64,000 nucleotides of DNA from Crocinitomicaceae bacterium (GTDB lineage: Bacteria > Bacteroidota > Bacteroidia > Flavobacteriales_D > Crocinitomicaceae): the NCBI GenBank assembly GCA_021325675.1, contig JAJTCM010000001.1:1-64000 (forward strand). The letters are read 5' to 3'. The notes below the pieces were generated by a model. It worked only from the letters and a program-made list of their open reading frames with translations, made no database searches and was not told the origin of the DNA. Made by a program: the position numbers and the translations under genes. Positions 4,481 through 33,445 of this stretch are shown here, piece by piece; position 1 is the first letter of the stretch, and each line of letters starts with the position of its first letter.

Positions 4481-5323
4481 ATGATGAAAAAAATTGGAAT
4501 AATCGGTGCCGGCGTCATGGGTAGGGGCGTAGCTTATCAGTTTGCCAAATACGGTTTCGAGATCGTACTCCAGGACATCCGCGGGGAAGCTTTGGAACAG
4601 GCAAAAACAGACATCAAAAACACCCTGCGCATGGATATGTTGCTCAACAGGGCCAACCCGAAAAACAAAGAGGTGATTGATGTGATCCGTTTTACGGCGG
4701 ATTTAAACGAGCTTGCCGGGTGCAGTTTTATCGTCGAAAACATCATTGAAAACATGGATGCGAAACAGGCTTTGTACCGACAATTGGCGACAGTTCTGGA
4801 TAGAGATACTGTGGTTGCGGTCAACACGTCCTGTATTTCCATTACCAAAATCGCTTCGCTGCTCAACGATCCGTCCAAGGTGCTGGGAATTCATTTCATG
4901 AACCCGGTGTACATGAAACCGACGGTGGAAATGATCGAAGGCGTGCATACTTCGCCGGAAACAATTGCGTACGCCCTGGAAACGCTGGCCGAAGTTGACA
5001 TGGACGGCATCGTCGTGAAAGATTTTCCGGGCTTCGTTTCGAACCGGATTTCGCACCTGTTGATGAATGAAGCCGCGCTGATCGTACAGGACAACGTAGC
5101 GACCCACGAGCAGATCGATGAGATTTTTAAAAAATGCTTCGGGCATAAAATGGGACCGCTCGAAACGGCTGATCTCATTGGCCTGGACACCGTCGTGGAT
5201 TCCTTAAAAGTGTTGTACGACGAGTTCCAAGACCCGAAATTCCGGGTGAGTCCGCTGCTGAAGAAAAAAGTGGAGGCCGGTTTACTGGGGAGAAAAAGCG
5301 GGGAAGGGTTTTATAAGTACTAA
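4481..5323 (+). CDS. 3-hydroxyacyl-CoA dehydrogenase family protein (FkbK-like, extender-unit oxidation)
   Basis: This is an NAD-dependent dehydrogenase of 280 residues, the normal length for the short HAD/PaaH/HbdA form. The N-terminus has the Rossmann motif GAGVMGRG, and GIHFMNP carries the catalytic His with VEMIEG following. The C-terminal domain ends in the usual LLGRKSGEGFY. In methoxymalonyl- and hydroxymalonyl-ACP pathways (FkbK, ZmaG type) such an enzyme oxidises glyceryl-ACP. The company of ACP, acyl-CoA dehydrogenase and FkbH makes that role far more likely than fatty-acid oxidation. The ATG abuts the NRPS stop; a second ATG lies 3 nt on. It is followed by 152 nt that contain an inverted repeat. 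Confidence 0.88.
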   Translation: MMKKIGIIGAGVMGRGVAYQFAKYGFEIVLQDIRGEALEQAKTDIKNTLRMDMLLNRANPKNKEVIDVIRFTADLNELAGCSFIVENIIENMDAKQALYRQLATVLDRDTVVAVNTSCISITKIASLLNDPSKVLGIHFMNPVYMKPTVEMIEGVHTSPETIAYALETLAEVDMDGIVVKDFPGFVSNRISHLLMNEAALIVQDNVATHEQIDEIFKKCFGHKMGPLETADLIGLDTVVDSLKVLYDEFQDPKFRVSPLLKKKVEAGLLGRKSGEGFYKY

Positions 5324-5475: not shown

Positions 5476-5712
5476 ATGGAAGTAAAAGAAAAAGTAAAGG
5501 AGTTTTTGCAAAAGAAGATCGGTCAGGACAAGTCATTTTCATTGGATGATAACATCTTCAAACAAGGTTTGGTCAATTCGCTGTTCGCGCTCGAGTTGGT
5601 CGTGTTTTTGGAAAACACCTTTTCTATAGCCGTTGAAAATGAGGATTTAAACCTCGAAAACTTCAACAGTGTCAACAACATTGATAATTTCATTGCACGT
5701 AAAAAAGCATAA
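5476..5712 (+). CDS. Free-standing acyl carrier protein (FkbJ-like)
   Basis: This 78-residue acyl carrier protein has its phosphopantetheine serine at Ser35 in GLVNSLFALELV. The Asp that normally precedes the serine is Asn here (NSL instead of DSL), a form I associate with discrete ACPs of FkbJ type. It should carry the glyceryl, then hydroxymalonyl, unit that FkbH loads and the two dehydrogenases oxidise. Its stop overlaps the next ATG by one base (TAATG), so the two are translationally coupled. Activation needs a PPTase, and one is encoded at 32813. Confidence 0.9.
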   Translation: MEVKEKVKEFLQKKIGQDKSFSLDDNIFKQGLVNSLFALELVVFLENTFSIAVENEDLNLENFNSVNNIDNFIARKKA

Positions 5713-6875
5713 TGATCACAGACCAGTACACATTGACGGACGAGCAGATCAGGCTCCGGAAAGAGGTGAGGGCGTTTGCTGACGAGTTTCTCGTTCCGAA
5801 TGCCAATGAATTCGACCGCCAGGAAATTTTACCCCGGGAAATCATCCGGGAAATGGCTTCGAGATCTTACCTCGGTGCGACGATTCCTGCTGAATACGGG
5901 GGAAGGGGAATGGACCAGCTCGCTTACGGGATTTTGAACGAAGAAATAGGCCGCGGATGTTCTTCGGCCCGGAGCCTGATTACGGTGCATTCTTCCATCG
6001 TGGCGGAAACCATTTTGCGCTGGGGAACAAAAGAGCAAAAAGCGAGCTGGCTGCCCTTAATGGCGAAAGGCGAAAAGATTGGCGCTTTCGGGTTGTCCGA
6101 ACCTTTTGTGGGGAGCGATGCCAAAAGCATTCAAACCACGTATGAAGAAACAGACGATTGCTTCATCCTCACCGGCACTAAAAAATGGATCACTTTTGCC
6201 CAGATTGCTGATCTGATCGTGATTGTTGCCCGGAACGGGGAGCAAACCAGTGCTTTTTTGGTGGAAAATACCCTGCCCGGATTTGAAATGATCCCGATTA
6301 AAGGAATGTTGGGGACAAAAGCTTCGATGCTGGCGGAAATCCGGCTGACAAATGTCAAAGTTCCTAAAAACTGCCTGCTGGGGATCAAAGGCATGGGCTT
6401 CATGCAAATTGTAAATACCGGCTTGGATAACGGCCGCTACAGTGTGGCCTGCGGATCTTTGGGTATTGCGCTGGCTGCTTTGGAAGACAGTATCAACTAC
6501 GCCAAATCCCGGATCCAATTTGACGTTCCACTGCGTGACCACCAGCTGATCAAACAAAAAATTGCAAACATGACGGCCGGTGTGAAAGCTGCGCGTTTAT
6601 TGTGCTACAATGCCGGTGCGCTTCGGAACAGGAAAGATCCTTCTTCGCTGATCCAAACCTCGCTTGCCAAGTATTTTGCTTCGAAAGTGGCGTTTGAGGC
6701 GGCAACGGAAGCGGTTCAATTGCACGGCGCGAATGGCTGCCACGATGAATACAATGTGAACCGGTATTTCCGGGACGCCAAAGTGATGGAAATTATTGAG
6801 GGCTCTTCTGAAATTCAGCAATTGTTGATTTCAAAATATGCCCTGGACGAATTAGATACAATTTTGGAATCATGA
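5712..6875 (+). CDS. Acyl-CoA dehydrogenase family flavoprotein (FkbI-like)
   Basis: This FAD-dependent dehydrogenase has 387 residues, a typical family length. The N-terminal helical domain (LRKEVRAFADEF) is followed by the middle domain (GAFGLSEPFVGSDA and KKWIT..) and the C-terminal domain. The end FRDAKVMEIIEGSSEIQ has Glu where the catalytic base sits in many family members. In the FkbI/ZmaE role it completes oxidation of the ACP-bound glyceryl unit to the hydroxymalonyl level. Start and stop overlap both neighbours (TAATG with the ACP gene, ATGA with the next gene), so it belongs to one translational unit. A general lipid-degradation role is less likely in this context. Confidence 0.9.
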   Translation: MITDQYTLTDEQIRLRKEVRAFADEFLVPNANEFDRQEILPREIIREMASRSYLGATIPAEYGGRGMDQLAYGILNEEIGRGCSSARSLITVHSSIVAETILRWGTKEQKASWLPLMAKGEKIGAFGLSEPFVGSDAKSIQTTYEETDDCFILTGTKKWITFAQIADLIVIVARNGEQTSAFLVENTLPGFEMIPIKGMLGTKASMLAEIRLTNVKVPKNCLLGIKGMGFMQIVNTGLDNGRYSVACGSLGIALAALEDSINYAKSRIQFDVPLRDHQLIKQKIANMTAGVKAARLLCYNAGALRNRKDPSSLIQTSLAKYFASKVAFEAATEAVQLHGANGCHDEYNVNRYFRDAKVMEIIEGSSEIQQLLISKYALDELDTILES

Positions 6876-7840
6876 TCGGGATCAAAGCCATAAAACCCTT
6901 TATTGCGGGTGAAAAAACGAATATCAGCAGTCTCCGCGAATACGAAGCGCTCAACGAGCAGGAACTGGAATACCTGAACAGCGCGGGCATCAAAACGGTA
7001 TACGACGCGGAAAATTATACGTCCTATGACCTGGCGTTGGAAGCTGCGCGTAAGTTGTTTGCCGAAGAAGAAATCACACCACAGGAAATTAATGCAATTA
7101 TCTACATCAAAAGCCGCGTTCCCGAATATTTCGTGGCTTCCGAAGCAACGCGCTTACAGCATGACCTGGGAATCGAAAATTGCCTGACGTTTTCCGTCAG
7201 CGACCTGGGCTGTGTGGATAGCACGCTGGCTGTAAAAATGGCGAAAGACCTGCTGATCTCGAATTCCGCCTGGGAAAATGTATTGATCGTTTACGGCAGC
7301 AAAAAGTTTACCGAGCAGCGTTTTCGTTTCCCGGTAACCATGACCGGTGATGGCGGCGTGGCCTGCGTGATTGGTCGTACGGATCGCAATGTGATCGAAG
7401 ACGTGAAAATTGAATCCAACGGCAAATACTGGGATTTGTTTAAAATCGATTTCCGGAATGAATTGGCTGAACAATACAAGGAAGAATGCACCGATCTACG
7501 GAAATACGGCTTCGAACTGGCTCTCGAAAGCAGGAACCGCTTTGACGGACAGATCAATTCTATACTCACAGAAAACGGGCTTCAGAAGGAAGAGATTAAT
7601 GCTTATGTGATGCAAAATATTTCCGCGCGGGCTTTTCAATATTACGAAGATGCGTTCGGGATCAAAATTTCCCCGTTTTGCAAAATGAACCTTGGTCAGT
7701 ACGGGCATTTAGGTTCGGCAGATATTTTACTCAATTACCAATTGGGCTTACAGGCAAAAATGATCAAACCGGGAAGCAGGGTCCTGATCCTGAACAACAG
7801 TCCGGTAGCAGCCTGGAGTACCATTTTAATTAAAGCATAA
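6872..7840 (+). CDS. KAS III-like (thiolase-fold) protein with altered catalytic residues; candidate acyltransferase
   Basis: This 322-residue thiolase-fold protein resembles beta-ketoacyl-ACP synthase III. The nucleophile is kept as Cys114 in SDLGCVDST. By eye, FabH's active-site His falls on Gln248 (AYVMQNIS) and its Asn on His279 (QYGHLGSAD), so ordinary decarboxylative condensation is doubtful. KAS III-like proteins with altered triads, such as CerJ, act as acyltransferases, and others partner FkbH and ACP in tetronate pathways. Lying between the acyl-CoA dehydrogenase and FkbH, and with a synthase that has lost its AT, this protein could pass the extender from the ACP to the KS module. 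That role is inferred. It overlaps the preceding gene by ATGA. Confidence 0.8.
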   Translation: MIGIKAIKPFIAGEKTNISSLREYEALNEQELEYLNSAGIKTVYDAENYTSYDLALEAARKLFAEEEITPQEINAIIYIKSRVPEYFVASEATRLQHDLGIENCLTFSVSDLGCVDSTLAVKMAKDLLISNSAWENVLIVYGSKKFTEQRFRFPVTMTGDGGVACVIGRTDRNVIEDVKIESNGKYWDLFKIDFRNELAEQYKEECTDLRKYGFELALESRNRFDGQINSILTENGLQKEEINAYVMQNISARAFQYYEDAFGIKISPFCKMNLGQYGHLGSADILLNYQLGLQAKMIKPGSRVLILNNSPVAAWSTILIKA

Positions 7841-7841
7841 C

Positions 7842-8921
7842 ATGAACGAACATTTACAGGAAATCCAAAAGGCACTGGACGAAAAAAACAGCAAAAAGAC
7901 GATCAAATGCATCGTTTGGGACCTCGATCATACCTTGTGGGACGGAATTTTGACCGAAGACGTGGAAGTTCGCCTGAGAAACGGCTTGCAGCAAAAACTG
8001 GAAGAACTCGATCAAAGAGGAATTCTGCTGAGCATTGCTTCGAAAAACACCTATGAACATGCCATGGAAAAGCTGAAACAGTTAGGGATCGATCATTTGT
8101 TTTTGTATCCGCAAATTAACTGGGGGCCGAAATCCGCTTCCCTGGAAAAAATCCGGGAAAAACTGAATATCGGCATGGACGCAATTGCTTTTATTGACGA
8201 TCAGCCTTTTGAGCGGGAAGAAGTTAAACACACCCACGAAGAAATCAGCATTTACGACATCGACGTGATTGACGAATTGCTCGAACGCCCGGAGTTCAAA
8301 CCGCGTTTTATCACGGAAGAATCTGCCGCGCGCCGCAAAATGTATTTGGAAGATGATGTGCGCAAATCCGAAGAAGAATCCTTTGATGGCGCAAACATCG
8401 AATTCCTGCGTTCCCAGCAGATGCGCTTCACGATCTCGAAAGCAACGGTTGCCGATTTGCAGCGGGTGGAGGAATTGACCGTTCGTACCAATCAGCTGAA
8501 CGCTTCCGGTTATACCTATTCCTACGATGAGCTGGAATCTTTCATCACATCACCGGACCACGAACTAATAGTCGCCGAATTGATTGACAAACATGGAACT
8601 TATGGTAAAATTGGTGTGGCGTTGCTCGAAAAAGGCACGGAATACTGGACTTTGAAATCCATGCTGATGTCCTGCCGCGTGATGTCGCGTGGCGTTGGAA
8701 ACGTTTTGCTGTATTATATCATGAACCTGGTGAAAGAAAACGATGCCAAATTATTGACGGAATTCCTTCACACCGACAAAAACAGGCTGATGTTCATGAC
8801 CTTAAAATTTGCAGGTTTTACAGAATTTGGCGACAAGCTGGAAAATGGGAGAAACCTCCTGGTCCACCACCTGGACGGATCGTTTGATTACCCTGAATAT
8901 TTAACACTGACAATCGAATAG
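7842..8921 (+). CDS. fkbH: FkbH-like HAD-superfamily glyceryl-ACP synthase
   Basis: FkbH enzymes take 1,3-bisphosphoglycerate, remove phosphate and load the glyceryl group on a discrete ACP. The protein is 359 residues, the family norm. The HAD nucleophile motif is WDLDHTLWDG near residue 30, with SIASKN (motif II) and FIDDQPFEREE (motif IV). The C-terminal third has GNAT-like segments (TVADLQRVEELTVRTNQ and a GVGNVLL turn) typical of FkbH. No O-methyltransferase (FkbG) lies in the cassette, so the predicted extender is hydroxymalonyl-ACP rather than methoxymalonyl-ACP. The stop codon overlaps the alternative GTG start of the next gene. Confidence 0.92.
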   Translation: MNEHLQEIQKALDEKNSKKTIKCIVWDLDHTLWDGILTEDVEVRLRNGLQQKLEELDQRGILLSIASKNTYEHAMEKLKQLGIDHLFLYPQINWGPKSASLEKIREKLNIGMDAIAFIDDQPFEREEVKHTHEEISIYDIDVIDELLERPEFKPRFITEESAARRKMYLEDDVRKSEEESFDGANIEFLRSQQMRFTISKATVADLQRVEELTVRTNQLNASGYTYSYDELESFITSPDHELIVAELIDKHGTYGKIGVALLEKGTEYWTLKSMLMSCRVMSRGVGNVLLYYIMNLVKENDAKLLTEFLHTDKNRLMFMTLKFAGFTEFGDKLENGRNLLVHHLDGSFDYPEYLTLTIE

Positions 8922-8926
8922 TGAAG

Positions 8927-11900
8927 ATGGATATTGCCATAATAGGAGTTGCGGGGAGGTTTCCTGACGCAAAAAACGTGGAGGAGCTGCTCGCCAATTT
9001 ACGGAGAGGAAAAGACAGCGCCCGGCATTTGTCAATGGAGCGCATGAAGGCGACGAACCTGCCTTCCAAATTGAAGTATAAAGTGTTTTCTTCTTTGGAG
9101 GGAATTGACCGTTTCGACTACAAATACTTTGAAATGTCCTTTGCCGAAGCGATCCACATGGATCCGCACCAACGTTTATTGCTCGAAGTTGTCCAGGAAA
9201 TGTTCGACAGCTCGGCCTATGATCCCGAAATCTTTTACGGTTCCAATACCGGGATTTTCTGTGGCGATGTTAACCTGAAATATTACGAATTGGCCACGGT
9301 TTTCGATCCAACTTTGCTGACGGGGAATATCAACGCCGTTGCAGCCGGACGCGTTGCCCGTTATTACAACCTGCGCGGACCAATGATGATGATCGACACC
9401 AATTGTTCGTCGACTTTGGTAGCGCTCGACCTGGCCTGTAAGGAAATCCGGCTCGGAGAAGTGGAGCAGGCCATCGTTTGCGGGGCGCGTCTCGTTTTGA
9501 AACCCGATGTGGAAGAAGGCGACGACAACCTGGGGATCATGGTCAGCGACGGAAAAACAAAATCCTTTTCAGAAGATGCCGAAGGAACCGGGGCAGGTGA
9601 AGCGGTGGCGGCCATCCTGATCAAACCACTCGACAAAGCTTTGCAGGACGAAGACATCATTTACGGCGTCATCAAAGGTACGGCGGTCAACCAGGAAGCG
9701 GCTTTGTCGGGAAGTCTCACGGCTCCGAGCAGCAAAGCCCAGGCCGAAGTGATCCAAAAAGCATGGAAATCCTCCGGCGTTGATCCGTTGAGTATTCGCT
9801 ATATCGAGCCGCACGGAAGCGGAACTAAATTAGGCGACCCGATTGAAATCCAGGGAATTGACCTGGCGTATTCCGGCTTGGGAGCAGAGAAAAATACGAT
9901 CGGCGTTTCGGCGCTTAAATCCAACATCGGTCATACGGATACGGTTGCCGGTTTGTCGGGCTTAATCAAGGTTGTACTTTCTTTGCGGGAAAAGGAATTT
10001 TTTCCTTCGGTGCATTTCAACAAGCCCAACCAGCTCATTGATTTTGAGCAATCCCATACGCGTATTGTCACCAAAAACGAAAAATGGACCAGCCATCCGG
10101 ATTTTCCTCGGCGGGCCGGACTCAGTTCTTTCGGTTTGAGCGGTACGAATGCACATATTATTCTTGAAGAAGCCCCGGAAATTTCTGTCAAAACCAAAAA
10201 AGAAGGAAAATACCTCATACCTGTTTCTGGACGTTCCAACGAAGCTTTACAATACAATATTAACGCGTTGCAGGAGTATTTGCAGGATTTTCCGGAAGTG
10301 GAATTGGCTGATTTGGCGTATACTTTAGGAGTCGGAAGAAAACATTACACCCAACGCGTAATTTTCGAAGCCGAATCAGCGATCGAATTACTTGGTCTGC
10401 TCCACGAATGGAATGCTGAGAATCATAAGTCACATCCGGAAGCCAAACCGTTTTTCATTTTTTCAGAAAATGCGGGAGAGATTGATTTGAACGCCTGGAC
10501 GCAATTCGAGGAGTTTAATACGCATTACAACGAATGTCTGTCAGCAGGCGAGAATCCCGCTATTCGTAATTTTGCGTTCCAGTATGCGGCTTACAAGCAA
10601 CTTGAGGCCTGGAACATGGCTTCAAAAACCGTTTTGGGTGCGGGATTGGGTAAAAATGTCATCGATGTTGTGACTGGAGCCAAAACTTTGGAAGAAGGAT
10701 TATCAGCCTGCGCAACTCACAACAACAGCGAAATTCCCAATTTAAAAGAAAGAGTAACCGCTTTAATTGAAAAACAAGCAGCCAACGGGCCGGTAGCTTT
10801 TATCCTCCTGGGAACAGAAAGCGGCTTGTTCAACGAAATTCAGGCGCAGCAAACGACAGACGTATATGCCATTGACGGGACCGATCTTGTCCGCCTCGTC
10901 AACGATTTATATCTCTGTGGAGTTACCGTCAATTGGAAAGCGTTTTACCGGAATTCTGGAGGTCAGCGCATCGTGTTACCGGCTTACCGTTTTGATCGTG
11001 TGCGCTGCTGGCTGCGCGAACCTTTTTCGGATGCGGAGGAAGAATGGGAATACAACAAATACCATCATCCGGAACTGGCCGGAATTCCCGAAAGTTTCCA
11101 GGCAACGGTTTCCGTTAAAACCTACGATTTTGACGATTCGTGGACGCCGACAGAACAAAAAATCGCGCAGTTCTGGCTGGAAGTGCTTCGCCTCGATAAG
11201 GTCGAATTAGACGACGATTTTTTCAAGCTTGGTGGCCATTCCCTGATTGCTACACAGCTGATCGCCCGGATCGAGCAGGAATATGGTTTCAGGCTGCTGT
11301 TTAAAAATATTACTGTGTTTTCCTCCATTCGGAAACTGGCTGAGGCCGTAGATGAGCGCATCAATTCAGGCGAAAAAACAGAACTGCTGCGGATCGGGAA
11401 AACCGTGCCGCAAGATTCTTATCCGCTCAGTCACGCGCAAAAACGCCTGTACATCATGCAGCAATTCGAAGGCGGCGGAACAAGCTATAACCTGCCCGGA
11501 GCGGTTTTGTTGAAAGGAAAAATCGACAGCGACCGTTTTGAACAAGCGATTAATGAATTGATCAAAAGACATGAAAGCTTGCGTACATCGTTTATCGAAA
11601 TCGAGGGAGAACCGCGTCAGCAAGTGTTGGAAAATCTTGATTTTAAATTAAGTCAAGCCAAAGCAAATAAAGAAGAATTAACGGCTGTTATTGCGGAATT
11701 CATCCAACCTTTTGACCTGACCCAGGCACCTTTATTCCGTGCAAAGCTGGTCGAATTGGAAAATGGGGAAAACGCTTTCCTTTTTGACGTGCATCATATC
11801 ATTTCTGATGGAATTTCCCAGGAATTGCTCGTGCGGGATTTTGTGAATTTGTATTTGGGAGAAAACCTCCCCGAATTGCCGATCCAATACAAAGATTTTG

Positions 11901-14900
11901 CAGTCTGGCAAGCAGATCAGTTTGCTTCCGGGGCATTTTTGGCACAGGAAAACTACTGGAAAGATCGTTTCCGCGATGAACTGCCGGTACTGGAATTGCC
12001 TTATGATTTTACGCGGCCAAAAGTGCAAAGCTTTAAAGGCGCGAATACCGCACGTTTGTTGAACAAAGAAAAAGCAGACAAAATCCAGGCTTTGGCGCAG
12101 GAAAAATCGGCGACTTTGTACATGGCTTTGCTGGCGATTTACAATGTGCTGCTCTCCAAATTATCCGGGAACGAAGATGTTATCGTTGGCTCACCGATTG
12201 CCGGCCGTCCTGACACAGACACGGAGCAGGTACTCGGGATGTTTGTGAACACCTTGGTTATGCGCAATTTTCCGCAGGCAGATTTGTCCTTTTCGGATTT
12301 CCTCGGAACAGTCGTGCAAAACGCCAACGAAGCCTACGAAAACGCGGATTATCCTTTTGAAAAATTACTGGATGAGCTGAACATTGAACGTGATTTGGGA
12401 AGAAATCCTTTGTTTGATACGATGTTTTCCTTTCAGCGTTTTTACAATTCGGATCAAGGCGCGGCGAATGCTGATTTTACGGTGGAAGCGTTGGCGTTTT
12501 CCGGCTCTACTTCCAAATTTGACCTGACCCTCGAAGTGTTTGAAAAAGAAGAAGGACTCAGCCTGAACCTGGAATATTGCACTGATTTGTTCACGGAAGC
12601 TACGGCAAATAAACTCCTGGAACGCTTCGAATTGGTACTCGACCAGATCTTGACCAACCCGGAACTGCAGCTCAAAGATCTGGAAATTTTACAACCGCAA
12701 GAATGGGAGGAAGTGATCGTTCAAAGAAATAAAACGGAGGAAGTTTATAAGATTGAACAGTCATTTACCGCTTCATTCCTGGAAAATGTGCGTAAAAATC
12801 CGGATGCATTGGCTGTAAAATATGAAGATCAAACGCTAACTTATGCCCAGTTGAACGAAGCGGCTAACTCCGTGGCCAATTACCTGCTCGGGCAAGGATT
12901 TAGTCGTGGAACAGTTGTCGCTTTGGAAGCTGATCCATCCCTGGAAATGGTCATTGGCTTCCTGGGAATCGTGAAATCCGGCGCAGCCTTTTTACCGATC
13001 GACCCTGCTTATCCGGATGATCGCGTGCGCTATATGCTTGAAAAAAGCGGCGCGAAATTGATGCTTACGACCAAAATAGCAAACTTACGACTCGAAGACC
13101 TGGCTTTTTCTGTGCAATCCGTTCCAAAAAATACGGAAGAACCTGCTGTTTCCAGTGAGCTTTCCGATACGGCTTACATTGTCTTTACTTCCGGCTCGAC
13201 AGGCAAACCCAAAGGCGTGGAAGTGGGCTACGAAGCCTTGCTGAACTGTTTGAACTGGCACATTACCGAAAACAACATAACGTCGGCCGATTGCTTATCT
13301 AAATATGCGGGTTTTGCTTTTGACGCGTCGATGCTGGAAATTTATACGCCTTTCCTGTGCGGCGCTTCCCTGCACATTATTCCCGCAGAGATCCGTAAAA
13401 ATGTGGATGAAGTGCGCTCGTTCATGAAGAAAAGCGAGATAGCGATTGCCTTTTTACCCACACAAATGGCGGAATTTTTCATGGAAGAAGACTGTGAAAG
13501 CTTGCGCGTGCTTTTTGTCGGTGGTGATAAGTTAAAACGCTACAAAGCCAATTCTTTTGAAGTAAAAAATTATTACGGTCCTTCTGAAAATACGGTTGTT
13601 TCGACAGTCTACCGCATCCAGGCCCAAAGCGAAAATATCCCAATCGGGAAAGCGCTTCCAAATACGCAGGCTTATGTTTTGGATAAAAACGACAAGCCCG
13701 TTCCGGATGGGGTAGTGGGTGAACTTTTTGTGTCCGGGCTTAACCTCGCGAAAGGCTACATCAACGATCGGGAAACAACAGCGGAACGCTTCCTGGAGCA
13801 TCCTTTCAGAAAAGATGAACGGATTTACCGTACCGGCGACCTCGCCAAATGGAATACACAGGGCGAACTGGAATTTATGGGCCGCGTTGATTTCCAGGTC
13901 AAAATCAGGGGTTACCGCATCGAGCTGGGCGAAATCGAACATGCCATCCTGGATCTTGCGGGCGTAAAAACAACGTTCGTAACAGATTTCAACCAGGCCG
14001 ACGGAAATAAGGCATTGGTAGCGTATATTTTGGCAGAAAAACCTATTCCGCAAGAAGAAGTACAAAAACAGTTATCGGCGACTTTGCCCGATTACATGCT
14101 TCCGGCGCAGCTTGTTTTCGTGGATGAAATTCCATTGACGGCCAACGGGAAAGTCGACAAAAAAGCGCTTCCCAAACCGGAGGGAAATATACAAGATATA
14201 TACAAAGCACCGGCTTCAGAAGCGGAACAAAAAGTGGCCCGCTTGTGGAAGCAAGTGCTCGGCTTGGAGAAATGCAGCGTTGACAGCAATTTCTTCCGTT
14301 CCGGGGGACATTCCCTGAATGCAACGATGCTGATCAGCCTGATCCGGAAAGAATTTGATATTACAATCGGCTTGAAGGATTTCTTTATGGCTCCTACAAT
14401 TGAACATTTGGCAAAACTGCTCGAAAGTTCCGGGCAAAAGAATTCTGTACAACTGAAATCGATTGAAAAAGCGGATAAATACCCGGTTTCTTCGGCCCAG
14501 CAGCGTTTGTATATCTTGCAGCAGCTTGCCCCGCAGACCATCGCCTATAATTTGCCGGTTTTTGTAAAAATTAAAGGAGATTTTGACCCGCAGCGTTTTG
14601 AACTGGCACTCAACGAAGTGATCGCACGCCACGAATCCTTGCGGACAAGCTTTACCGAAATTGATAATCAGATTTACCAAATAGTTGATGATAATCTGGC
14701 CATCAGTCTTGAAAATTTGGGCAACGATCCCGATTCTTTCTGTCGTCCCTTTGATCTGAATAAAACTCAATTGCTAAGGGCAGGGTGGAAGCCTTTAAGC
14801 GAAAAGGAGTTTTTACTGGCGTTTGATATGCACCACATCATTTCCGATGGGGTGTCGATGAACAACTTGCTAACGGAAATCGCCGCGTGTTACGATGGTC

Positions 14901-17900
14901 AGACTTTGGAGCCTTTACGAGTTCAATACCGCGATTACGCTGCCTGGCAACACGAATTTTTTCAAACGAATGAATTCCTGGCCCAGCGTGATTTTTGGCT
15001 GAATTCCCTGCGTGGGGCTGAAGGGTTGAATTTACCGACCGATTTCCCGCGACCTTCGGAAATGAAATTTGAGGGGAACCGCGTGCATTACCAGTTAAGC
15101 GAAGAATATAGCGCGGCACTGGAGAAGCTGGCGCAAAAGCTGGGCGCGACGGATTTCATGGTACTTCTTTCTCTCTTCAACGTCTTGCTGCACAAAGTGA
15201 CAGGTCAGGAAAATATCATCTTGGGAACTCCGTCTGCGGGTCGAAAAGATGCCGAATTACAGCCTTTGATCGGGATGTTTGTCAATACCTTGGTGCTTCA
15301 AAATAAAGTGAAACCAAACGCAACTTTCAGCGAAGTCTTGGAAGAGCTTAAAACGACGACCTTACACGCGCTGGAATACCAGGATTACCAGTTTGATCAA
15401 TTGGTGGAAGACCTGGGCGTGAAACGAGACACGAGCCGCAATCCGCTTTTTGATGTCATGTTCCAGTTTGAGAATATGGGCGGCGGGGATATTGCAAATA
15501 CCCGGATCGGGGCCTGGGAAATCGAAGCGCAGGACCAGGATTACGGCGTTTCCAAATTCGATCTGACTTTTGAAGTGAAAAAACCGGGAGACTGTTTCCT
15601 GGTAGCCATTGAATATGCCGTTCACCTGTTCCGGAAAGAAACGGTTGACCGCTTTTTTGCGATGTTTACGGAAATCGTGAAAAATGTAGTAAACAGTCCG
15701 GAAATTGCAATCGCGAAAATAAACTTTACACCTGAACAAGACCGCAAGCTGATTCTTTCGGAATTCAATGATACGAAACATGCTTTTGCTTCGGATATTT
15801 GCTTACACAGCTTACTTGAGCAGCAGGCAGCTTTAACACCGAATAAAACCGCGCTTATTTTCCAAGATGAACGTTTGTCTTATTTCGAATTAAATACGAG
15901 AGCGAACCAATTGGCGCATACCTTGATCGCTTCCGGCATCGAACGGGGCGATATCGTTGCCCTGAAAGTGAACCGTTCCTTTGAAATGGTAATTGCCTTG
16001 CTTGCGATCCAAAAATCTGGTGCAGCATATTTGCCGATTGACCCGGAAATTCCTTCAGACCGCTTGACATATTTGCTTAAAGACAGCCGTTCCAAAGTGT
16101 TTTTGTGTGATCAGGAAATAGATGTCAACGTTCCTTTACTCAATGTTACCAACGCATCGAGTTATGCTGAAAAAACGCATAATCCGAACGTAACAATTTC
16201 GCCGGACGATCTGGCTTATGTGATTTACACTTCCGGATCAACGGGAGAACCCAAAGGCGTAATGTTGGAACACCGCGGCGTGGTAAACCGGATCGAGTGG
16301 ATGAAAACATTTTACGGTTTTACACCCGAAGACAAAGTCTTGCAGAAAACAACTTATACCTTTGACGTTTCAGTCTGGGAGTTTTTCATGACGCTTTGCT
16401 ACGGCGCAGAATTGGTGTTGTGTGAAAAAGAAGTGATTTCCGATGTCAGTTTGCTGATTGACACGATAGAAAAATACCAAATTTCCGTGTTGCATTTTGT
16501 GCCGAGCATGTTCAAACTATTCCTGCACGGGATCGATGAAACCAACAAAAACCGATTGGCTTCCATCAAACAGATTTTCACGAGCGGAGAAGCCCTGAGC
16601 GTGGAATATGTTCATCAGCATCACCGTTATTTAAAGGCGGAATTGCACAATTTGTACGGCCCAACGGAAGCTTCGGTGGACGTGAGTTATTTCGAAACAT
16701 CGGCCGCAGACAAAATGGTACCGATCGGGAAACCGGTCTGGAACACGCAGTTGTATGTGTTGAACGCAGCATCCCAATTGTGCCCGGTGGGCGTTGCGGG
16801 AGAATTGTACATTGGAGGCGTGCAGGTGGCGAGAGGTTACCTCAACAAAGCAGAATTGACGAATGAGCGTTTTGTTTCCAATCCATTTGGAGAAGGACGT
16901 TTGTACAAAACCGGCGATTTGGTGCGTTGGCTTCCGGATGGAAACATTGAATTTTTAGGCCGCATCGATTTCCAGGTGAAAATCCGTGGTTTCCGGATCG
17001 AATTGGGAGATATTGAAAGCCAATTATTGAAAATCGATGGCCTGGCGGAAGTTGCTGTGATTGACAAAACAGATTCGAACGGGGACAAATTCCTCTGCGC
17101 TTACATCGTATCCCATGAAGAACTACAAATTGGGGAGATCAAAAAAGCCCTGGCGCAAAACTTACCGGATTACATGATCCCGGCGTATTATGTGAGATTG
17201 GATCAAATGCCGCTCAATAACAGTGGGAAACTCGATCGCAAAGCCTTGCCGGAAGTAGACCAGCAAAGCGTGGAACGAGCCACTTACGAAGCGCCGCAAA
17301 CTGAAACAGAAATCCGTTTGGCGGAGCTCTGGTCTGAACTGCTGGCAATCCCGGAAATTGGGATCAACGATAACTTTTTTGCCATCGGCGGACAATCCCT
17401 GAAAGCGACTTTGCTCCTGGCTAAAATGAAACGCGCTTTTGGTGTTTCTTTTCCATTAATGGATCTTTTCAGGCATGCGACGATCAAGGAACAGGCGCGA
17501 TTGCTGGAAAATGCAACAGCTGAGGCAGATCACCAAATTACACAAGCGGCTGTTCAGGCGCATTATCCTTTGTCCCCGGCGCAGCTGCGCATGTTTGTGC
17601 TGAATAAAATCAACCCGGACACAACGGAATACAACATTTCCCAGGCCTTTGAAATTCACGGAGAGGTGAATTTAGATAAGCTGAAGCAGGTTTTCCAAAA
17701 GCTGGTGGAGCGCCATGAAATCCTGCGCACGCATTTTACCTTGGTGGATAATGTTCCCGCACAAATCATTCATGAAAAGGCAGAAATTGATCTGAAGGTT
17801 TACACCCATGTTCCGGTGAGTGAAGTGACTGAGAGTTTTATCCGGCCGTTTGATTTGAGCCAGCCTTGCCTGATGCGCGTGGCCTGCATAGCGAACGAAA

Positions 17901-20900
17901 ATGCTCCGCTCGTTGTTCTCCTGGATTTTCATCACATTGTCATGGACGGAGTTTCGATCCAGTTGCTGACGCAGCAATTTACGAAGCTTTACCGGGAAGA
18001 AAACCTTGCACTGCCGGATCTGCAGTACAAAGATTTTGTGCTATGGCAAGCCGATTCGATCCGCCAGGGAGCGCATGAAAAAGAAAAGGAATTCTGGCTG
18101 CGTAAGTTCGATGGCGAGCTGCCGGTGATGAATTTCCCACTCGATTTCCCGAGGCCGGCCATGCAGACTTTCGACGGAAATCACCTGTCCCTGTTTTTGG
18201 ACCAGGACCTTAAAAAACGCATCGATTCCCTTTGCCAGACAAGTAACGCGACGAATTACATGCTGCTGCTGGGGGCTTATTTTATTCTCTTGGGCAAATA
18301 TACTTCCCAGGAGGATTTGATCGTTGGGACACCGGTTTCCGGCCGTACGAACCCGGATGTGGAAAACATGATCGGGATGTTTGTCAATACGTTGGCGATC
18401 CGTTCGCAGCTCAAGCCGGAGGAAACTTTCCTGGACTTTTTGGAGGATTTCCGCGACCACATGATTGCTTGTTTTTCCAACCAACAATACGCTTTTGAAG
18501 AATTGGTCAACGAATTGAAAATCGAACGGGCTGCGAGCCGCAATCCTTTGTTTGACACGCTCTTTTCCTACATCGACAAATCGGCTATGGCGGACATGAT
18601 CGGCGAAAGCGGTCTCGATATTCGTCCGGTGGAATTGGATAACCCCGTGGCGCAATTTGATTTCCAGCTGGATATCCAGGACTTCGGGCAGCACATTCAA
18701 TGCGTACTGACTTACAATACCGGCTTGTTCCGGGAAGAAAGTATGCAGCGTTTCCTGGATCATTACAGCTATATTTTGAACCAATTGCTGGAAAATCCGC
18801 AAGCGAGGATCAGCGATTTATCGATTCTTTTACCAGAAGAAAAAAACCAGATTCTTTCGGAATTCAACGCTACGGAACACGCTTTTGCTTCGGATGTTTG
18901 CCTGCACACCTTATTTGAGAACCAGGCTGTCCTGACACCAACTAAAACTGCGCTTATTTTCAAGAACAAAGGTTTGACGTACGGCGAATTGAACAGCGCG
19001 GCCAACCGATTGGCGCGTACCCTGATTGCTTCCGGCATCGAACGGGGCGATATCGTTGCCCTGAAAGTGAACCGTTCCTTTGAAATGGTGATTGCTTTGC
19101 TGGCGATTCAGAAAGCGGGTGGAGCTTATTTGCCGATTGACCCGGAAATTCCGGCAGAACGTTTGACATATTTGCTTCAAGACAGCCGTTCCAAAGTGTT
19201 CATCTGCGACCAGGACGTGGAAATTGGCGTTCCATTAATTAATTTGAAAAAAGCATCCAGCTATTCGGAATTGACACAAAATCCTAATGTAGCAGTTTCC
19301 CCGGACGATTTGGCTTACGTGATCTATACTTCCGGATCGACCGGAGAACCTAAAGGCGTGATGCTCGAACATCGCGGCGTGGTGAACCGGATCGAATGGA
19401 TGAAAAGCTTTTACGGTTTTACTTCTGAGGACAAAGTCTTGCAGAAAACGACTTACACCTTTGACGTTTCCGTTTGGGAGTTTTTCATGACGCTATGCTA
19501 CGGCGCAGAATTGGTACTCTGTGAAAAAGAAGTGATTTCTGATGTGAGTCTATTAATCGAGACGATTGAGAAACACCAAATTTCTGTGTTGCATTTTGTG
19601 CCGAGCATGTTTAAAATGTTCCTGCACGGAATCGATGAAAACAACAAAAACAGATTGGCTTCCATCAAACAGATTTTCACCAGCGGGGAAGCCCTGAGCG
19701 CGGAATATGTTCATCAGCATCACCATTATTTAAAGGCGGAATTGCACAATTTGTATGGCCCAACGGAAGCTTCGGTAGATGTGAGTTATTTTGAAACATC
19801 AGCCGCAGATAAAATTGTACCGATCGGAAAACCGGTTTGGAACACGCAGTTGTATGTGTTGAACGCAGCATCCCAACTCTGTCCGGTGGGCGTTGCGGGA
19901 GAATTGTATATCGGCGGTGTGCAAGTAGCGCGAGGTTACCTGAACAAAGAAGAATTGACGAATGAGCGTTTTGTTGTCAATCCGTTTGGAGAAGGACGTT
20001 TATATAAAACCGGCGATTTGGTGCGCTGGCTGCCGGATGGAAACATTGAATTCCTGGGCCGCATCGACTTCCAGGTGAAAATCCGTGGATTCCGGATTGA
20101 ATTGGGAGATATCGAAAGTCAATTGCTGAAAATTGAGGGTCTGGCCGAAGTTGCCGTGATTGATAAAACGGACGCGAACGGAGAAAAATTCCTCTGTGCC
20201 TATATCGTTTCACAGGAAGAACTACAGATCGGCGAAATCAAAAAAGCCCTGGCGCAAAACTTACCGGATTACATGATCCCGGCGTATTACGTGAGCTTGG
20301 ATCAAATGCCGCTCAACAACAGCGGAAAACTCGACCGCAAGGCCCTGCCGGAAGTGAACGAAGAAAGCGTGGAGCGTGCTGAATTTGTGGAATTGCAATC
20401 CAAAAACGAATTGATCCTGGGCGAGCTCTGGAAACAGGTTTTGGGAATTGAGCGCGTTGGTGCCGGAGATCATTTTTTCAACCTGGGCGGCGATTCGATC
20501 AAAGCGATCCAATTAAGTTCCCTGTTGGCTCGTCAGCAGCTGAAAATGCCTTTAAACTTGTTGTTTCAATACCCGGTTTTAGCGGATTTGGCGCAGGAAA
20601 TCCAGGTGCAGGAACTGAACATTTCGCAGGAAAAAGCTTCGGGTTACCTGCCGCTGACACCGGTGCAATTGCGTTTCTTTGAGCAAAATTTCGCCGAGCC
20701 GCAGCATTATAATCAAAGTGTGATCATCGAAATCAAGGATTGGAACAAAGAGCGTTTTGAACAGGCTTTGCAGGCCATTTTGGATAAACACGATACGCTG
20801 CGCATTCAATTTGAAGTGCAGAACGGCGAAATCCGGCAGAAATACGCTGAAACGGAGTTGTCAGAAATCCTCAACTTGCCGGATGAAAACCAACTCATGC

Positions 20901-23858: not shown

Positions 23859-24623
23859 CTATTGAATATTAAGCGTTGTTTTATTATTCGCCCAATCAGT
23901 TGCAAGTTGATCTTTTAGTTTCGTCCATACTTTCTCGCTAAAGACTAAACCTGCCCATGATAAAGCCTTTTCATATTTTAAAACAAGATGAACAAGATCG
24001 GCTTCCATTTTCGGATATTGACCTCTAACAAAAGAGCTTTTAAATTCATCGGTTATTCCTTTAACTGAGAAGTATAATACAAGCATTTTGGTAGTTTGTA
24101 ATATTACAGTAAATGGAAGTGCAATTTGTAAAAACATCGCAAAATTATTTTTGTCAACGGTTATTGATAGAATCAATATGCAAATAAATATTATGAAAGT
24201 AATAGTAATTTCTTTTGGAAGCATTCCTCTAACAACTGCCTTTGAGTGAAAGGCATTTTCATAACAATTAACTCCCATTTTATAGACACCATGGTTTATT
24301 TCTTCATTGGTGAAATAGTCAACTGAATTAGTATCTGAAAAGTTTGTATTAAAGCTGTTATCAATAAAGTCCTTCCTTCGTTTAAATTCAGCGTTTGGAA
24401 ACAAAAGGGTTTGTGCAATAGAAGATAAAAAATACACTACCGAAAAAAAAGTAACTAAAGCGTTTAATCCATCGATTAGAGGGTCGAAATAAATCTTATC
24501 AACACATGATAAAGTTATTAAAGTAATAGTAGTACATGCAGTTGTATATAAGATGATTAAACCAATTTGATCAATGGTTTTAACCAGATCATAATTTTTC
24601 TTAAATGGAACTATTCTATTCAT
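23859..24623 (-). CDS. S-4TM family putative pore-forming CBASS effector
   Basis: This 254-residue membrane protein has four predicted helices: about 18-42, 48-76, 138-156 and 160-186. The soluble stretch between helices 2 and 3 (FPNAEFKRRKDFIDNSFNTNF, with FTNEEIN following) and the C-terminal soluble part match my memory of SMODS-associated 4TM effectors. Such proteins are thought to breach the inner membrane when they bind the cyclic nucleotide made by the CD-NTase, killing the infected cell. It is the last gene of the operon, 9 nt after the E2-like gene. The family call rests on topology, a remembered motif and neighbours. Confidence 0.82.
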   Translation of the reverse strand: MNRIVPFKKNYDLVKTIDQIGLIILYTTACTTITLITLSCVDKIYFDPLIDGLNALVTFFSVVYFLSSIAQTLLFPNAEFKRRKDFIDNSFNTNFSDTNSVDYFTNEEINHGVYKMGVNCYENAFHSKAVVRGMLPKEITITFIIFICILILSITVDKNNFAMFLQIALPFTVILQTTKMLVLYFSVKGITDEFKSSFVRGQYPKMEADLVHLVLKYEKALSWAGLVFSEKVWTKLKDQLATDWANNKTTLNIQ

Positions 24624-24632
24624 TTTCTGAAT

Positions 24633-25064
24633 TTAATGAAATACTTTTTTTGATTCGTGTTTTACTTCTGGACCATACCATTTACCTGTCTGTAACCAAA
24701 TTTCATAAAAATAAATCCAACCTGCAACCCAGGGAACAATATCTAAAGCAAGAGAATTTTCTTTTTGCCAATAGTAATTTTTCTTATGATAAAGACATAA
24801 TGTATCGTCTTGGTGATAAAAATGGGGAGGATTAACAACTAATTTAGGCCTTATAATTTTTGCTTTGGGTCTTTTATTCCCTCTATATTCAATAGAAACT
24901 GTATATACCGGAAATTCGGGCTTCACTTGGAGTTTTCCTGTAAACATAATGCTGCCATTTCTAAGATCTTTATGTTTAAATTGAGGGAAATGAGCCTTCA
25001 TGGCATATACCTGTAAGTAAGGATTGTAGTTTTTATTCTTTTGAAACATCCCCATAATAACCAT
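24633..25064 (-). CDS. E2-like conjugating protein of short type II CBASS (Cap2-like)
   Basis: This 143-residue ubiquitin E2-like protein has the signature of CBASS E2 proteins: RPKLVVNPP, then DDTLCLYHKK, then DIVPWVAGWIYFYEIWLQTGKW. Cys90 is the only cysteine in the protein and is the predicted catalytic residue. No E1/JAB partner is encoded, so this is the short form, in which the E2 acts directly on the CD-NTase. The start lies inside the CD-NTase gene (32-nt overlap), which couples their translation; Met4 and Met6 are alternative starts. Context and motifs agree well. Confidence 0.87.
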   Translation of the reverse strand: MVIMGMFQKNKNYNPYLQVYAMKAHFPQFKHKDLRNGSIMFTGKLQVKPEFPVYTVSIEYRGNKRPKAKIIRPKLVVNPPHFYHQDDTLCLYHKKNYYWQKENSLALDIVPWVAGWIYFYEIWLQTGKWYGPEVKHESKKVFH

Positions 25065-31915: not shown

Positions 31916-32116
31916 TTTTGGAACGCAAAGAACAGCAAAGTTTAGCGCAAAGTTAGCGGAGGTTTAAGTTAGCAAAGATTGAAAAGAGTGTGATGATGGG
32001 TTTTATTTCATGCTTCCCAAAAAACACTTAGCGTCCTCTGCGAACCCATAGCGTCCTTTGCGCTCCAAAAAAACCTTCGTGCCCGCCTTGTGTCTTGGTG
32101 CCTTGGTGGCAAAAAA
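31916..32116. repeat. Intergenic inverted repeat plus outer arm (GCCACAAAG / GCGCAAAG classes)
   Basis: The inner pair is TTTTGGAACGCAAAGAACAGC (31916-31960) against CGTCCTTTGCGCTCCAAAA (32028-32071). Immediately after it, 32074-32116 is the right outer arm that pairs with 31457-31500. Each arm is itself a run of degenerate CAAAG-type words. Confidence 0.7.
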
Positions 32117-32132
32117 GAATTTACTACCTTTG
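32103..32132 (+). promoter_or_regulatory. Promoter of the thioesterase/PPTase operon
   Basis: TTG (32103-32105) and TACCTTTG (32125-32132) are spaced 19 nt, the Bacteroidota -33/-7 layout. The ATG at 32140 follows 7 nt later. A longer upstream frame from 32095 would put this promoter inside the gene, which supports the 32140 start. Confidence 0.6.
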
Positions 32133-32139
32133 CCCTCCC

Positions 32140-32826
32140 ATGAAAATCATTTGTTTACCCTTTGCCGGCGGCAGCTCCTATTCGTACCAAACCATGCAAA
32201 ACCTGGTCACGGGCCAGCTGGAGACAATCGAACTGCCCGGCCGTGGAAAAAGGATCATGGAACCTTTGCAGAGCAACACAGATTTGTTGGTGGAAGATAT
32301 CTTTGTACAACTCCAAACTTTGGTCGAATCCGGCGAAAAATACATTCTTTTTGGTCACAGCATGGGCGCTTTGTTGGGCTATCTCTTGCTTTGTAAATGC
32401 CGGGAGAAAGGTTTTCATTTGCCACAGGCTTTTATTGCTTCTGGCGCGAACGCTCCTTCTTATCCCCGAGAAATAGAAGAGGAAGGCCCGACGTATTTGC
32501 TCGACAAGTCAGGTTTTATCAATAAACTACGCAAGCTGGGCGGCTGTCCTGAGGAAGTGTTGCAGCACGATGCCCTGATGGATTTTTACGAGCCAATCCT
32601 GCGCAATGATTTCCAGGTGGTGGAAACTTATTCTTATAACGACGCAGAGCCTTTGCCGCTCGACGTAAAAGTACTACTCGGCGAGGACGATAAAGTCAAA
32701 CCCGAATCGGCGGAATTGTGGCAAAAAGACTTTCAATCCGCAGAAGTTTACTGGTTCCCGGGCGGACACTTTTTCATCTTCGATCACCTGCCGGCCATAA
32801 CGCGCATCATCAATGAGTACTGCTGA
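32140..32826 (+). CDS. Type II thioesterase (alpha/beta hydrolase)
   Basis: This 228-residue hydrolase matches external NRPS/PKS thioesterases (GrsT type), which remove wrong or stalled acyl groups from carrier domains. It begins KIICLPFAGGSSYSY, has GRGKRI, the nucleophile elbow FGHSMGALLGY, a late Asp in LLGEDDKVKP and the catalytic His in PGGHFFIFDH. It overlaps the PPTase gene by 14 nt. Such genes normally sit in the cluster they serve; here it lies 9.5 kb from the NRPS stop, beyond the cytochrome and defence genes. Confidence 0.92.
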   Translation: MKIICLPFAGGSSYSYQTMQNLVTGQLETIELPGRGKRIMEPLQSNTDLLVEDIFVQLQTLVESGEKYILFGHSMGALLGYLLLCKCREKGFHLPQAFIASGANAPSYPREIEEEGPTYLLDKSGFINKLRKLGGCPEEVLQHDALMDFYEPILRNDFQVVETYSYNDAEPLPLDVKVLLGEDDKVKPESAELWQKDFQSAEVYWFPGGHFFIFDHLPAITRIINEYC

Positions 32827-33445
32827 TCTGCATATCGTGTACGCTTCCATCCGCGAAATCTCCGGGGACAAGCTGCAAGCCGTTTTCGAAAAACTGACGG
32901 AAGAAGAACAGCGTAAATGTTCAGCTTATCACCGCGAAAGCGATCGCCAGGCTTTTTTAATCGGAAGATTGTTGATCGAACGCTTTGTGTATTCCGATTT
33001 GCAAGCGATTTCGTATTCTGTTTACGGAAAACCGTTTATTCCAGGCGCTCCTTTTTTCAATCTTTCGCATAGCGGCGATTACGTCGTACTGGCGATTTCA
33101 GAAAACGAAGTCGGCGTAGACATTGAATTTATGGGCGAAGTAGCTTACGATGAGCTTTCCAAGTTTTTCACGCCAGCCGAGCAGGAACTCATCCGTTCAT
33201 CCGTTCATCCGCGCTATGAATTTTACCGCATCTGGACGGCCAAGGAAGCTTTGCTGAAATGTACGGGAAAAGGTTTGGGCTTACCATTGGATAGCTTTTG
33301 TGTTGCAGCAAACACCGAACTTAGAGTGGAAAATCAAAATTACTGCGTGCAACAACTGGAAATCCTGCTCCCTGAAAATTACCAAATGGCGGTATGTTCT
33401 TCTGAAAATGCTACGCTGCGGATTGAGCGTTACAATGGTTTTTAG
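32813..33445 (+). CDS. Sfp-type 4'-phosphopantetheinyl transferase
   Basis: This 210-residue enzyme converts apo carrier proteins to holo form using CoA. The signature motifs are NLSHSGDYVV, GVDIEF (Mg-binding Asp and Glu) and FYRIWTAKEALLKCTGKG. The length and spacing fit the Sfp/Gsp group, which accepts NRPS and PKS carriers. It is translationally coupled to the type II thioesterase, so the pair is clearly dedicated to an assembly line. The stop codon lies inside the left arm of an inverted repeat. Confidence 0.93.
   Translation: MSTADLHIVYASIREISGDKLQAVFEKLTEEEQRKCSAYHRESDRQAFLIGRLLIERFVYSDLQAISYSVYGKPFIPGAPFFNLSHSGDYVVLAISENEVGVDIEFMGEVAYDELSKFFTPAEQELIRSSVHPRYEFYRIWTAKEALLKCTGKGLGLPLDSFCVAANTELRVENQNYCVQQLEILLPENYQMAVCSSENATLRIERYNGF

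Follow-up and report, generated by a model that had tools for sequence, protein, structure and literature searches.

In zwittermicin and FK506-type pathways, a cassette of FkbH, an acyl carrier protein (ACP), an acyl-CoA dehydrogenase and a 3-hydroxyacyl-CoA dehydrogenase, with no KSIII-like gene, produces hydroxymalonyl-ACP, or methoxymalonyl-ACP if an O-methyltransferase is added. ClbK of the colibactin pathway carries a non-working partial acyltransferase (AT) domain and is served by a trans-AT; ClbK (8cjh) and OzmQ KS1 of the oxazolomycin pathway (4oqj) are both solved ketosynthase (KS) structures with part of an AT, and we know of no KSIII-like loader for either. A serine-protease-like site is attributed to all PKS ATs in a 2024 review, which describes the loaders of trans-AT PKSs as discrete ATs with a Ser/His site (both statements from the part of PMC11907408 available to us). 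The zwittermicin AT, ZmaA, is a hydroxymalonyl-ACP AT with the motif GYSFG according to the excerpted text of PMC4207774.

The window analyzed here (the whole stretch of 64,000 nucleotides, positions 1–64000 of the contig) encodes a PKS-NRPS that follows such a cassette (Table 1). We favor, with a probability of roughly 0.6, the reading that this is a stably AT-less PKS module in an NRPS line, in which a KSIII-fold enzyme of deduced activity would have replaced the AT as loader in trans. The sequence evidence makes the KSIII-like gene two genes upstream of the module gene the likely loader; this gene was not mentioned in the first-pass annotation. The hydroxymalonyl-ACP cassette is complete in the window (FkbH, ACP, acyl-CoA dehydrogenase, and 3-hydroxyacyl-CoA dehydrogenase, based on Pfam and TIGR01686), and FkbH presumably transfers a glyceryl unit to the ACP. 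No O-methyltransferase is encoded between 4481 and 8921, in a cluster truncated on its left side where the contig ends, so the operon as it stands lacks the gene that marks a methoxymalonyl-ACP cassette. The last carrier domain of the upstream NRPS probably hands over to the KS of the PKS-NRPS.

Table 1. Features of the biosynthetic locus, in nucleotide positions of the window.
Feature	Position	Strand	Basis
NRPS, (A)-T-C-A-T, cut by contig end	98..4480	+	Pfam domains, translation
3-hydroxyacyl-CoA dehydrogenase, FkbK-like	4481..5323	+	PF02737/PF00725
Discrete acyl carrier protein, FkbJ-like, Ser35	5476..5712	+	PF00550
Acyl-CoA dehydrogenase, FkbI-like	5712..6875	+	PF00441/PF02771/PF02770
KSIII-like protein, proposed trans loader, Cys114/His279/Asp284	6872..7840	+	KSIII fold; conserved residues and motifs
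FkbH, HAD-IIIC family	7842..8921	+	TIGR01686, 253 bits (cut-off 146.65)
PKS-NRPS: KS - linker - mini-AT - post-AT linker - T - (C-A-T)x3 - C-family domain - TE	8927..22663	+	Pfam
KS, catalytic Cys160/His296/His336 present	8930..10018	+	Domain search, residue reading
KS-AT linker subdomain	10208..10440	+	PF22621, PF22336, PF16197
Mini-AT: first AT strand, helix, dead nucleophile elbow GAGLG, last AT strand	10445..10849	+	phmmer, 15-row profile, AlphaFold model
Gly573 at AT nucleophile site	10643..10645	+	Translation, alignments
Post-AT linker	10883..11017	+	phmmer and 15-row profile
Module carrier domain, LGGHSL, Ser772	11137..11370	+	Pfam, residue reading
Type II thioesterase, likely same cluster	32095..32826	+	PF00975
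Phosphopantetheinyl transferase, likely same cluster	32813..33445	+	PF01648

In a relative of the same class (G177), genes for a thioesterase and a phosphopantetheinyl transferase likewise follow the NRPS. In the window, CBASS-type defense genes identified by PADLOC (4TM effector, E2, and oligonucleotide cyclase; 23859–26010, minus strand) lie between the NRPS gene and these two genes, an arrangement suggestive of insertion into the cluster. A penicillin-amidase family gene (29095–31452, plus strand) is also located downstream of the NRPS, and is possibly an acyl-peptide maturation or self-protection enzyme; a penicillin-amidase gene directly follows the NRPS in a relative of the same genus as well (G002; L007 1416–3755); in G177, the gene of similar size that follows the NRPS belongs to another family. 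Foxicin was considered as the product, but the modules described for it in the excerpted text of PMC5318452 contain ATs, which does not match this locus.

The first-pass annotation had recognized an AT-like layout between KS and ACP, a nucleophile motif reading G-A-G-L-G, and a KS that keeps Cys160, His296, and His336, all of which held when the protein was read from 8927: KPFFIFSENAG is found at residue 507 (nt 10445) and FAFQYAAYKQLEAW at 549, and Gly573 (nt 10643–10645) replaces the AT Ser within VLGAGLGK. Its further claim, that the remainder of the AT is missing, is right for the region of the catalytic His but not for the last AT strand, VAFILLGTESGLF (residue 623), or the post-AT linker, both of which are kept; the element therefore ends at about 10849 rather than at 10720. 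After the KS-AT linker, the order is the opening motif at residue 507, FAFQYAAYKQLEAWN, the VLGAGLGK elbow and the last AT strand, then a normal post-AT linker and the carrier domain. Pfam Acyl_transf_1 gave no reported match at a limit of E 10, with HMMER filters dropping most matches above ~0.1. Against solved structures, phmmer matched the KS-AT of CurL (4mz0) with a whole-chain E of 2.5e-16, split over three collinear segments; the central one aligns GAGLGK with GHSVGE (i-Evalue 0.013 when taken alone). The second match of the single sequence was the ZmaA AT (4qbu). A 15-row profile matched CurL over 446–621, 647–712 (i-Evalue 5.8e-05), and 851–936, and the gap between these collinear pieces leaves CurL ~713–850, the rest of the active site, without a counterpart; a deletion has removed about 140 residues surrounding the catalytic His from the mini-AT. 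The mini-AT core alone matches CurL 647–711 (E 1.7e-08 for the chain) and, over the elbow, the ZmaA AT and many other ATs.

An AlphaFold model of the linker, mini-AT, and post-AT linker (pLDDT 85.8, pTM 0.82) superposes on the ZmaA AT with Z 22.0 and an rmsd of 2.9 over 262 residues, linkers counted in. Sequence profiles and this superposition agree on descent from an AT and on the fold of the AT large subdomain, and the combination of collinear matches and fold rules out a chance likeness. The mini-AT measures about 135 aa, with a core of 102–151 aa across 15 rows vs 319 positions in the Pfam model. As judged from its residues, the mini-AT is derived from an AT and catalytically dead. With the AT nucleophile lost and the KS intact, the extender unit must come from another protein, as the first-pass annotation had concluded.

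The Ser of the GxSxG motif expected of a PKS AT is Gly in all 15 aligned mini-ATs, and the carboxylate- (malonate-)binding Arg is present in none (0/15); this alignment excludes one locus without an AT remnant (L023) and one contig without a KS (L028), and L019, the named twin of G002, was left out of the counts. When 29 Streptomyces loci were searched with the mini-AT profile, a mini-AT was recovered from 27, every one with Gly (27/27; at least one is a repeat, L140 duplicating L025). Another 50 genomes of the class have PKS frames that the profile matches, in most cases over the central portion of the profile. In KS trees, the modules with a mini-AT form one side of a branch (91/91 with 17 rows, 95/90 with 24 rows), and this clade splits into a Bacteroidota part, joined by the Streptomyces loci L131 and L132 that have no KSIII-like gene nearby, and an Actinomycetota part. 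Clusters with a discrete AT are represented in the trees by a single KS (that of L023), and the tree row for G177 carries a KSIII-bearing label, although no KSIII-like gene was found there. The occurrence of the same compact Gly form in one KS clade of Bacteroidota and Actinomycetota indicates that the mini-AT is an old, fixed state.

This bears on the proposal of the first-pass annotation that the domain is "on its way to an AT-less module", that is, a dying module with its AT caught in decay. Evidence of that kind does exist, in that dN/dS in one close pair is higher for the mini-AT (0.097/0.230, ~0.42) than for the KS (0.025/0.166, ~0.15), and G177 has lost the operon or never had it. The constraint on the mini-AT is looser than that on the KS, but the domain is not free to drift. 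One KS clade spanning two phyla retains the compact form and the same Gly, and the KS catalytic residues are present in 17/17 modules with a mini-AT. The shared clade and the invariant Gly rule out recent decay, and a dying module is scarcely credible.

The KSIII fold of the proposed loader is supported by a predicted structure, the matches of which include DpsC (32.3), NatS (32.3), and ChlB3 (31.6), tied together and with type III PKS and OleA; the predicted fold alone cannot separate acyltransferases from type III PKS or OleA. Cys114, His279, and Asp284 are invariant in 17/17 KSIII-like sequences, and 18/18 carry the LGC and GHLGxxD motifs. The same fold, together with the finding that FabH enzymes are the closest solved sequences in profile searches, would also suit a condensing enzyme that starts or extends the chain rather than loading the module. 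Against this, the catalytic His position of FabH is occupied by Gln in 16/18 KSIII-like rows and by His in two, and the FabH Asn position is occupied by His with Asp five residues on in 18/18, FabH itself having Asn and Ser where the KSIII-like rows have this His and Asp. The resulting pattern is that of the acyltransferases ChlB3 and CerJ: in the accessible text of PMC9573744, the ChlB3 triad is Cys113, His296, and Asp301 (His-x4-Asp), CerJ likewise has Cys/His/Asp, and CerJ mutants in Cys and His lost malonyl transfer. The register between the KSIII-like protein and ChlB3/CerJ is derived via the FabH alignment and published spacing, not from direct sequence alignment. The module, moreover, already has an intact KS. 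Based on these active-site residues, the KSIII-like protein looks like an acyltransferase, and a role in condensation seems very improbable.

The distribution of the KSIII-like gene was followed in a GTDB genome scan with three KSIII-like sequences and two short patterns, which is not a census, and in 392 Streptomyces genomes. The GTDB scan gave 15 KSIII-like loci, of which 13 have a KS with a mini-AT on the fetched DNA; the exceptions are a cluster with a discrete AT (L023) and a 6 kb contig without a KS (L028). The cassette and the KSIII-like gene directly precede the KS gene in our genome, in G002, and in G095 (same taxonomic order), and this gene order is also kept in four named Bacteroidota loci (L018, L020, L021, and L022). 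As a control, three FkbH cassettes without a KSIII-like gene were found in S. uncialis, each adjoining a KS with a full AT that can be aligned to FabD over 280–314 aa; the motifs of these ATs are GHSQGE, GYSIGE, and GYSLGE, the latter two resembling that of ZmaA. Near the Goodfellowiella cluster lies a gene for what we take to be a UvrA-like ABC protein (L026 9689–11956, minus strand). The presence of such a gene near this cluster hints at a DNA-binding product.

In the Streptomyces survey (392 genomes), the mini-AT profile matched at 28 places, spread over 25 genomes. Matches to the KSIII-like profile comprised 23 strong ones (E 1e-130 or better) and a group of 14 weaker ones. This survey is not independent of the GTDB scan, since G529 is the genome of L024 and G658 has a contig as long as that of L025. 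A strong KSIII-like match lies within 7.3 kb of 22 of the 28 mini-ATs, or 23 if a split weak one is counted (G716). In the latter (L139), a single open frame contains the KSIII-like gene as two separate parts, which may reflect an insertion or a sequence error. Conversely, 22 of the 23 strong KSIII-like loci are near a mini-AT match, and the 23rd (G924) shows a mini-AT when read (L136). FkbH is encoded within the fetched stretch of 16–18 kb at 16 of the 22 loci with both, and not at the other six: it lies ~15 kb away on the same contig in G876, and only elsewhere, beside a KSIII-like gene of the second group, in G571, G583, and G872, with no FkbH found at all in G912. S. uncialis L024, with a KSIII-like gene and a mini-AT, has no FkbH on its contig, and Chryseolinea L023, the KSIII-like gene of which is in the discrete-AT cluster, has none in its genome.

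In the weaker group, 13 loci were read, with FkbH in 11 and a visible KS in 11, and no AT or mini-AT was detected in 10 of the 11 loci with a visible KS; L162 has a KS with a full AT, at a contig edge. The AT model used here was built from the three S. uncialis ATs and hence matches there by construction; it found ordinary ATs in an outside positive control (L133). The distance from the end of the KS to the post-AT linker is 158–209 aa in the nine measurable loci of this group, compared to 274 and 325 in two mini-ATs and 436–443 in three full-AT modules. Relatives thus present a graded series of full AT, mini-AT, and no detected AT, and the KSIII-like gene goes with AT loss to two degrees, with a mini-AT in the strong group and no AT in the second. 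The combination of a second-group KSIII-like gene, an FkbH cassette, and a KS without a detectable AT is seen in L137, L160, L161, and L163–L169; in L137, as read by eye, the module is KS-linker-carrier, followed by an apparent thioester reductase. A second KS without an AT in L079 is on the other strand from a full-AT module and has no KSIII-like gene there.

A more conventional loader was sought in our own genome, as the first-pass annotation had suggested, and the single PF00698 match, on another contig, is a frame of ~300 aa with GHSLGE that is taken as FabD from its size and count. A classic trans-AT gene can be set aside for this genome, PF00698 giving nothing beyond this one FabD-sized copy. 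The locus has the AT-less KS module of a trans-AT PKS without a discrete AT of the usual fold other than FabD. One PF00698 gene each is also found in G002, G095, and G177, and the operon-bearing relatives L018, L020, L021, and L022 have 4, 2, 2, and 10 matches, respectively, so other ATs are possible in those four. The single FabD-sized gene would fit a scheme in which the fatty acid synthesis enzyme FabD supplies the module with unmodified malonyl in trans and the cassette serves another step, and FabD was the only candidate found in G177. This would leave unexplained why the cassette and the KSIII-like gene directly precede the KS gene in our genome and in G002, G095, L018, and L020–L022, and why FkbH is close by in most of the Streptomyces loci read, and we consider loading by FabD improbable.

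There are six mini-AT modules without a KSIII-like gene: that of G177 and those of the Streptomyces loci L131–L135. In G177, the module is present with GIGLG and the KS residues, the place of the operon is closed up, and the genome (rated 100% complete) gave no KSIII-like match, no FkbH match, and no PF00698 match other than the FabD-sized gene. For five of the 28 Streptomyces mini-ATs, there was no KSIII-like match within 12 kb. G177 and L131–L135 show that the mini-AT does not strictly depend on the KSIII-like gene. L133–L135 belong to cis-AT lines with the motif GHG(I/V)GE (GHGIGE in L133 and L135, GHGVGE in L134); L133 still has a partial Pfam AT match (7.8e-12), and the KS of L134 groups with ordinary cis-AT KSs (100/100), which indicates that the same contraction arose at least twice. 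L133 and L135 are placed with L134 by like motif and sequence only, as their mini-AT KSs gave no tree row. The separate origin of L133–L135 implies that a mini-AT as such does not require a KSIII-like protein, and repeated contraction makes a structural reason for keeping the stump, the bridging of two linkers, likely. These three loci (~5–15 kb of each) appear as an independent and younger AT contraction with the same internal deletion, and L133 is a one-module protein ending in C-A-T-TE.

We propose the following route. FkbH, the two dehydrogenases, and the small ACP would build hydroxymalonyl on the ACP, a step that is well supported for the family. The KSIII-like protein would then take hydroxymalonyl from the ACP onto Cys114, aided by His279/Asp284, and pass it to the module carrier domain, so that a protein of thiolase-type fold would do in trans the job of the AT domain in other hydroxymalonyl modules. 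The intact KS would condense the upstream peptidyl-S-carrier with hydroxymalonyl, giving an α-hydroxy-β-keto, γ-amino unit, and the mini-AT would be kept as a scaffold bridging the linkers on either side of it (KS-AT and post-AT), with a possible second role as a docking face. An alternative that also accounts for the gene set and the acyltransferase signature is that the KS uses hydroxymalonyl directly on the discrete ACP, which is encoded beside the KSIII-like gene in most loci, and the KSIII-like protein moves the elongated chain to the module carrier. Such chain transfer demands a KSIII-like pocket wide enough for a peptidyl-polyketide and gives no reason for keeping the mini-AT scaffold; we regard it as rather unlikely. 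Loading of the extender by the KSIII-like protein is the reading we retain, and the exchange of an AT for a stump plus a putative KSIII-like loader probably recurs in two bacterial phyla.

There is perhaps an even chance that this represents a mode of feeding beside cis-AT and trans-AT, "trans-KSIII", denoting a thiolase-fold Cys-His-Asp acyltransferase that delivers an ACP-bound extender to a module, along which ATs shrank from full to mini-AT to none, with the contraction taking place again in L133–L135. If so, a KSIII-fold loader would be an exception among PKS loaders and a new tool for introducing hydroxylated extender units into peptides; the series of full AT, mini-AT, and no AT, with the loader gene as a correlate, makes AT-domain loss directly testable.

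Compared with described systems, the locus shares with zwittermicin A the type of extender cassette, and the mini-AT model has the ZmaA AT among its best structural matches; ZmaA is a full cis-AT with Ser192, His297, and Arg217, whereas the element here has lost the Ser, the Arg, and the His region, and the locus has a KSIII-like gene in addition. With methoxymalonyl-ACP cassettes of the FK506 and bafilomycin type it shares FkbH, ACP, acyl-CoA dehydrogenase, and 3-hydroxyacyl-CoA dehydrogenase, but the operon in the window is without an O-methyltransferase and with a KSIII-like gene, and the AT is contracted. As in trans-AT PKSs (bacillaene, leinamycin), there is no working AT, loading would take place in trans, and both linkers are kept; the difference is that a single FabD-sized AT gene is the only one here and the proposed loader is of another fold. 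ChlB3 and CerJ have the KSIII fold (ChlB3 scores Z 31.6, level with many other thiolase-fold enzymes), the Cys, and the His-x4-Asp, but the transfers described for them are of 6-methylsalicyl to an ACP and of malonyl to a sugar, not of an extender to an assembly-line module. Most solved AT-less KSs match in the linkers only, except for ClbK and OzmQ, in which the 15-row profile reaches past the linkers to positions 201 and 168, respectively; both are Foldseek matches of the AlphaFold model, and the mini-AT core has a weak match to ClbK 540–611 (E 0.031). A search of open-licence PMC papers turned up no description of hydroxymalonyl loading by a KSIII-like protein in connection with AT loss. 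Given the solved precedents of ClbK and OzmQ for truncated AT remnants, the stump is less novel and the link to the loader is unaffected; what is new is an AT-less module paired with a proposed loader of another fold.
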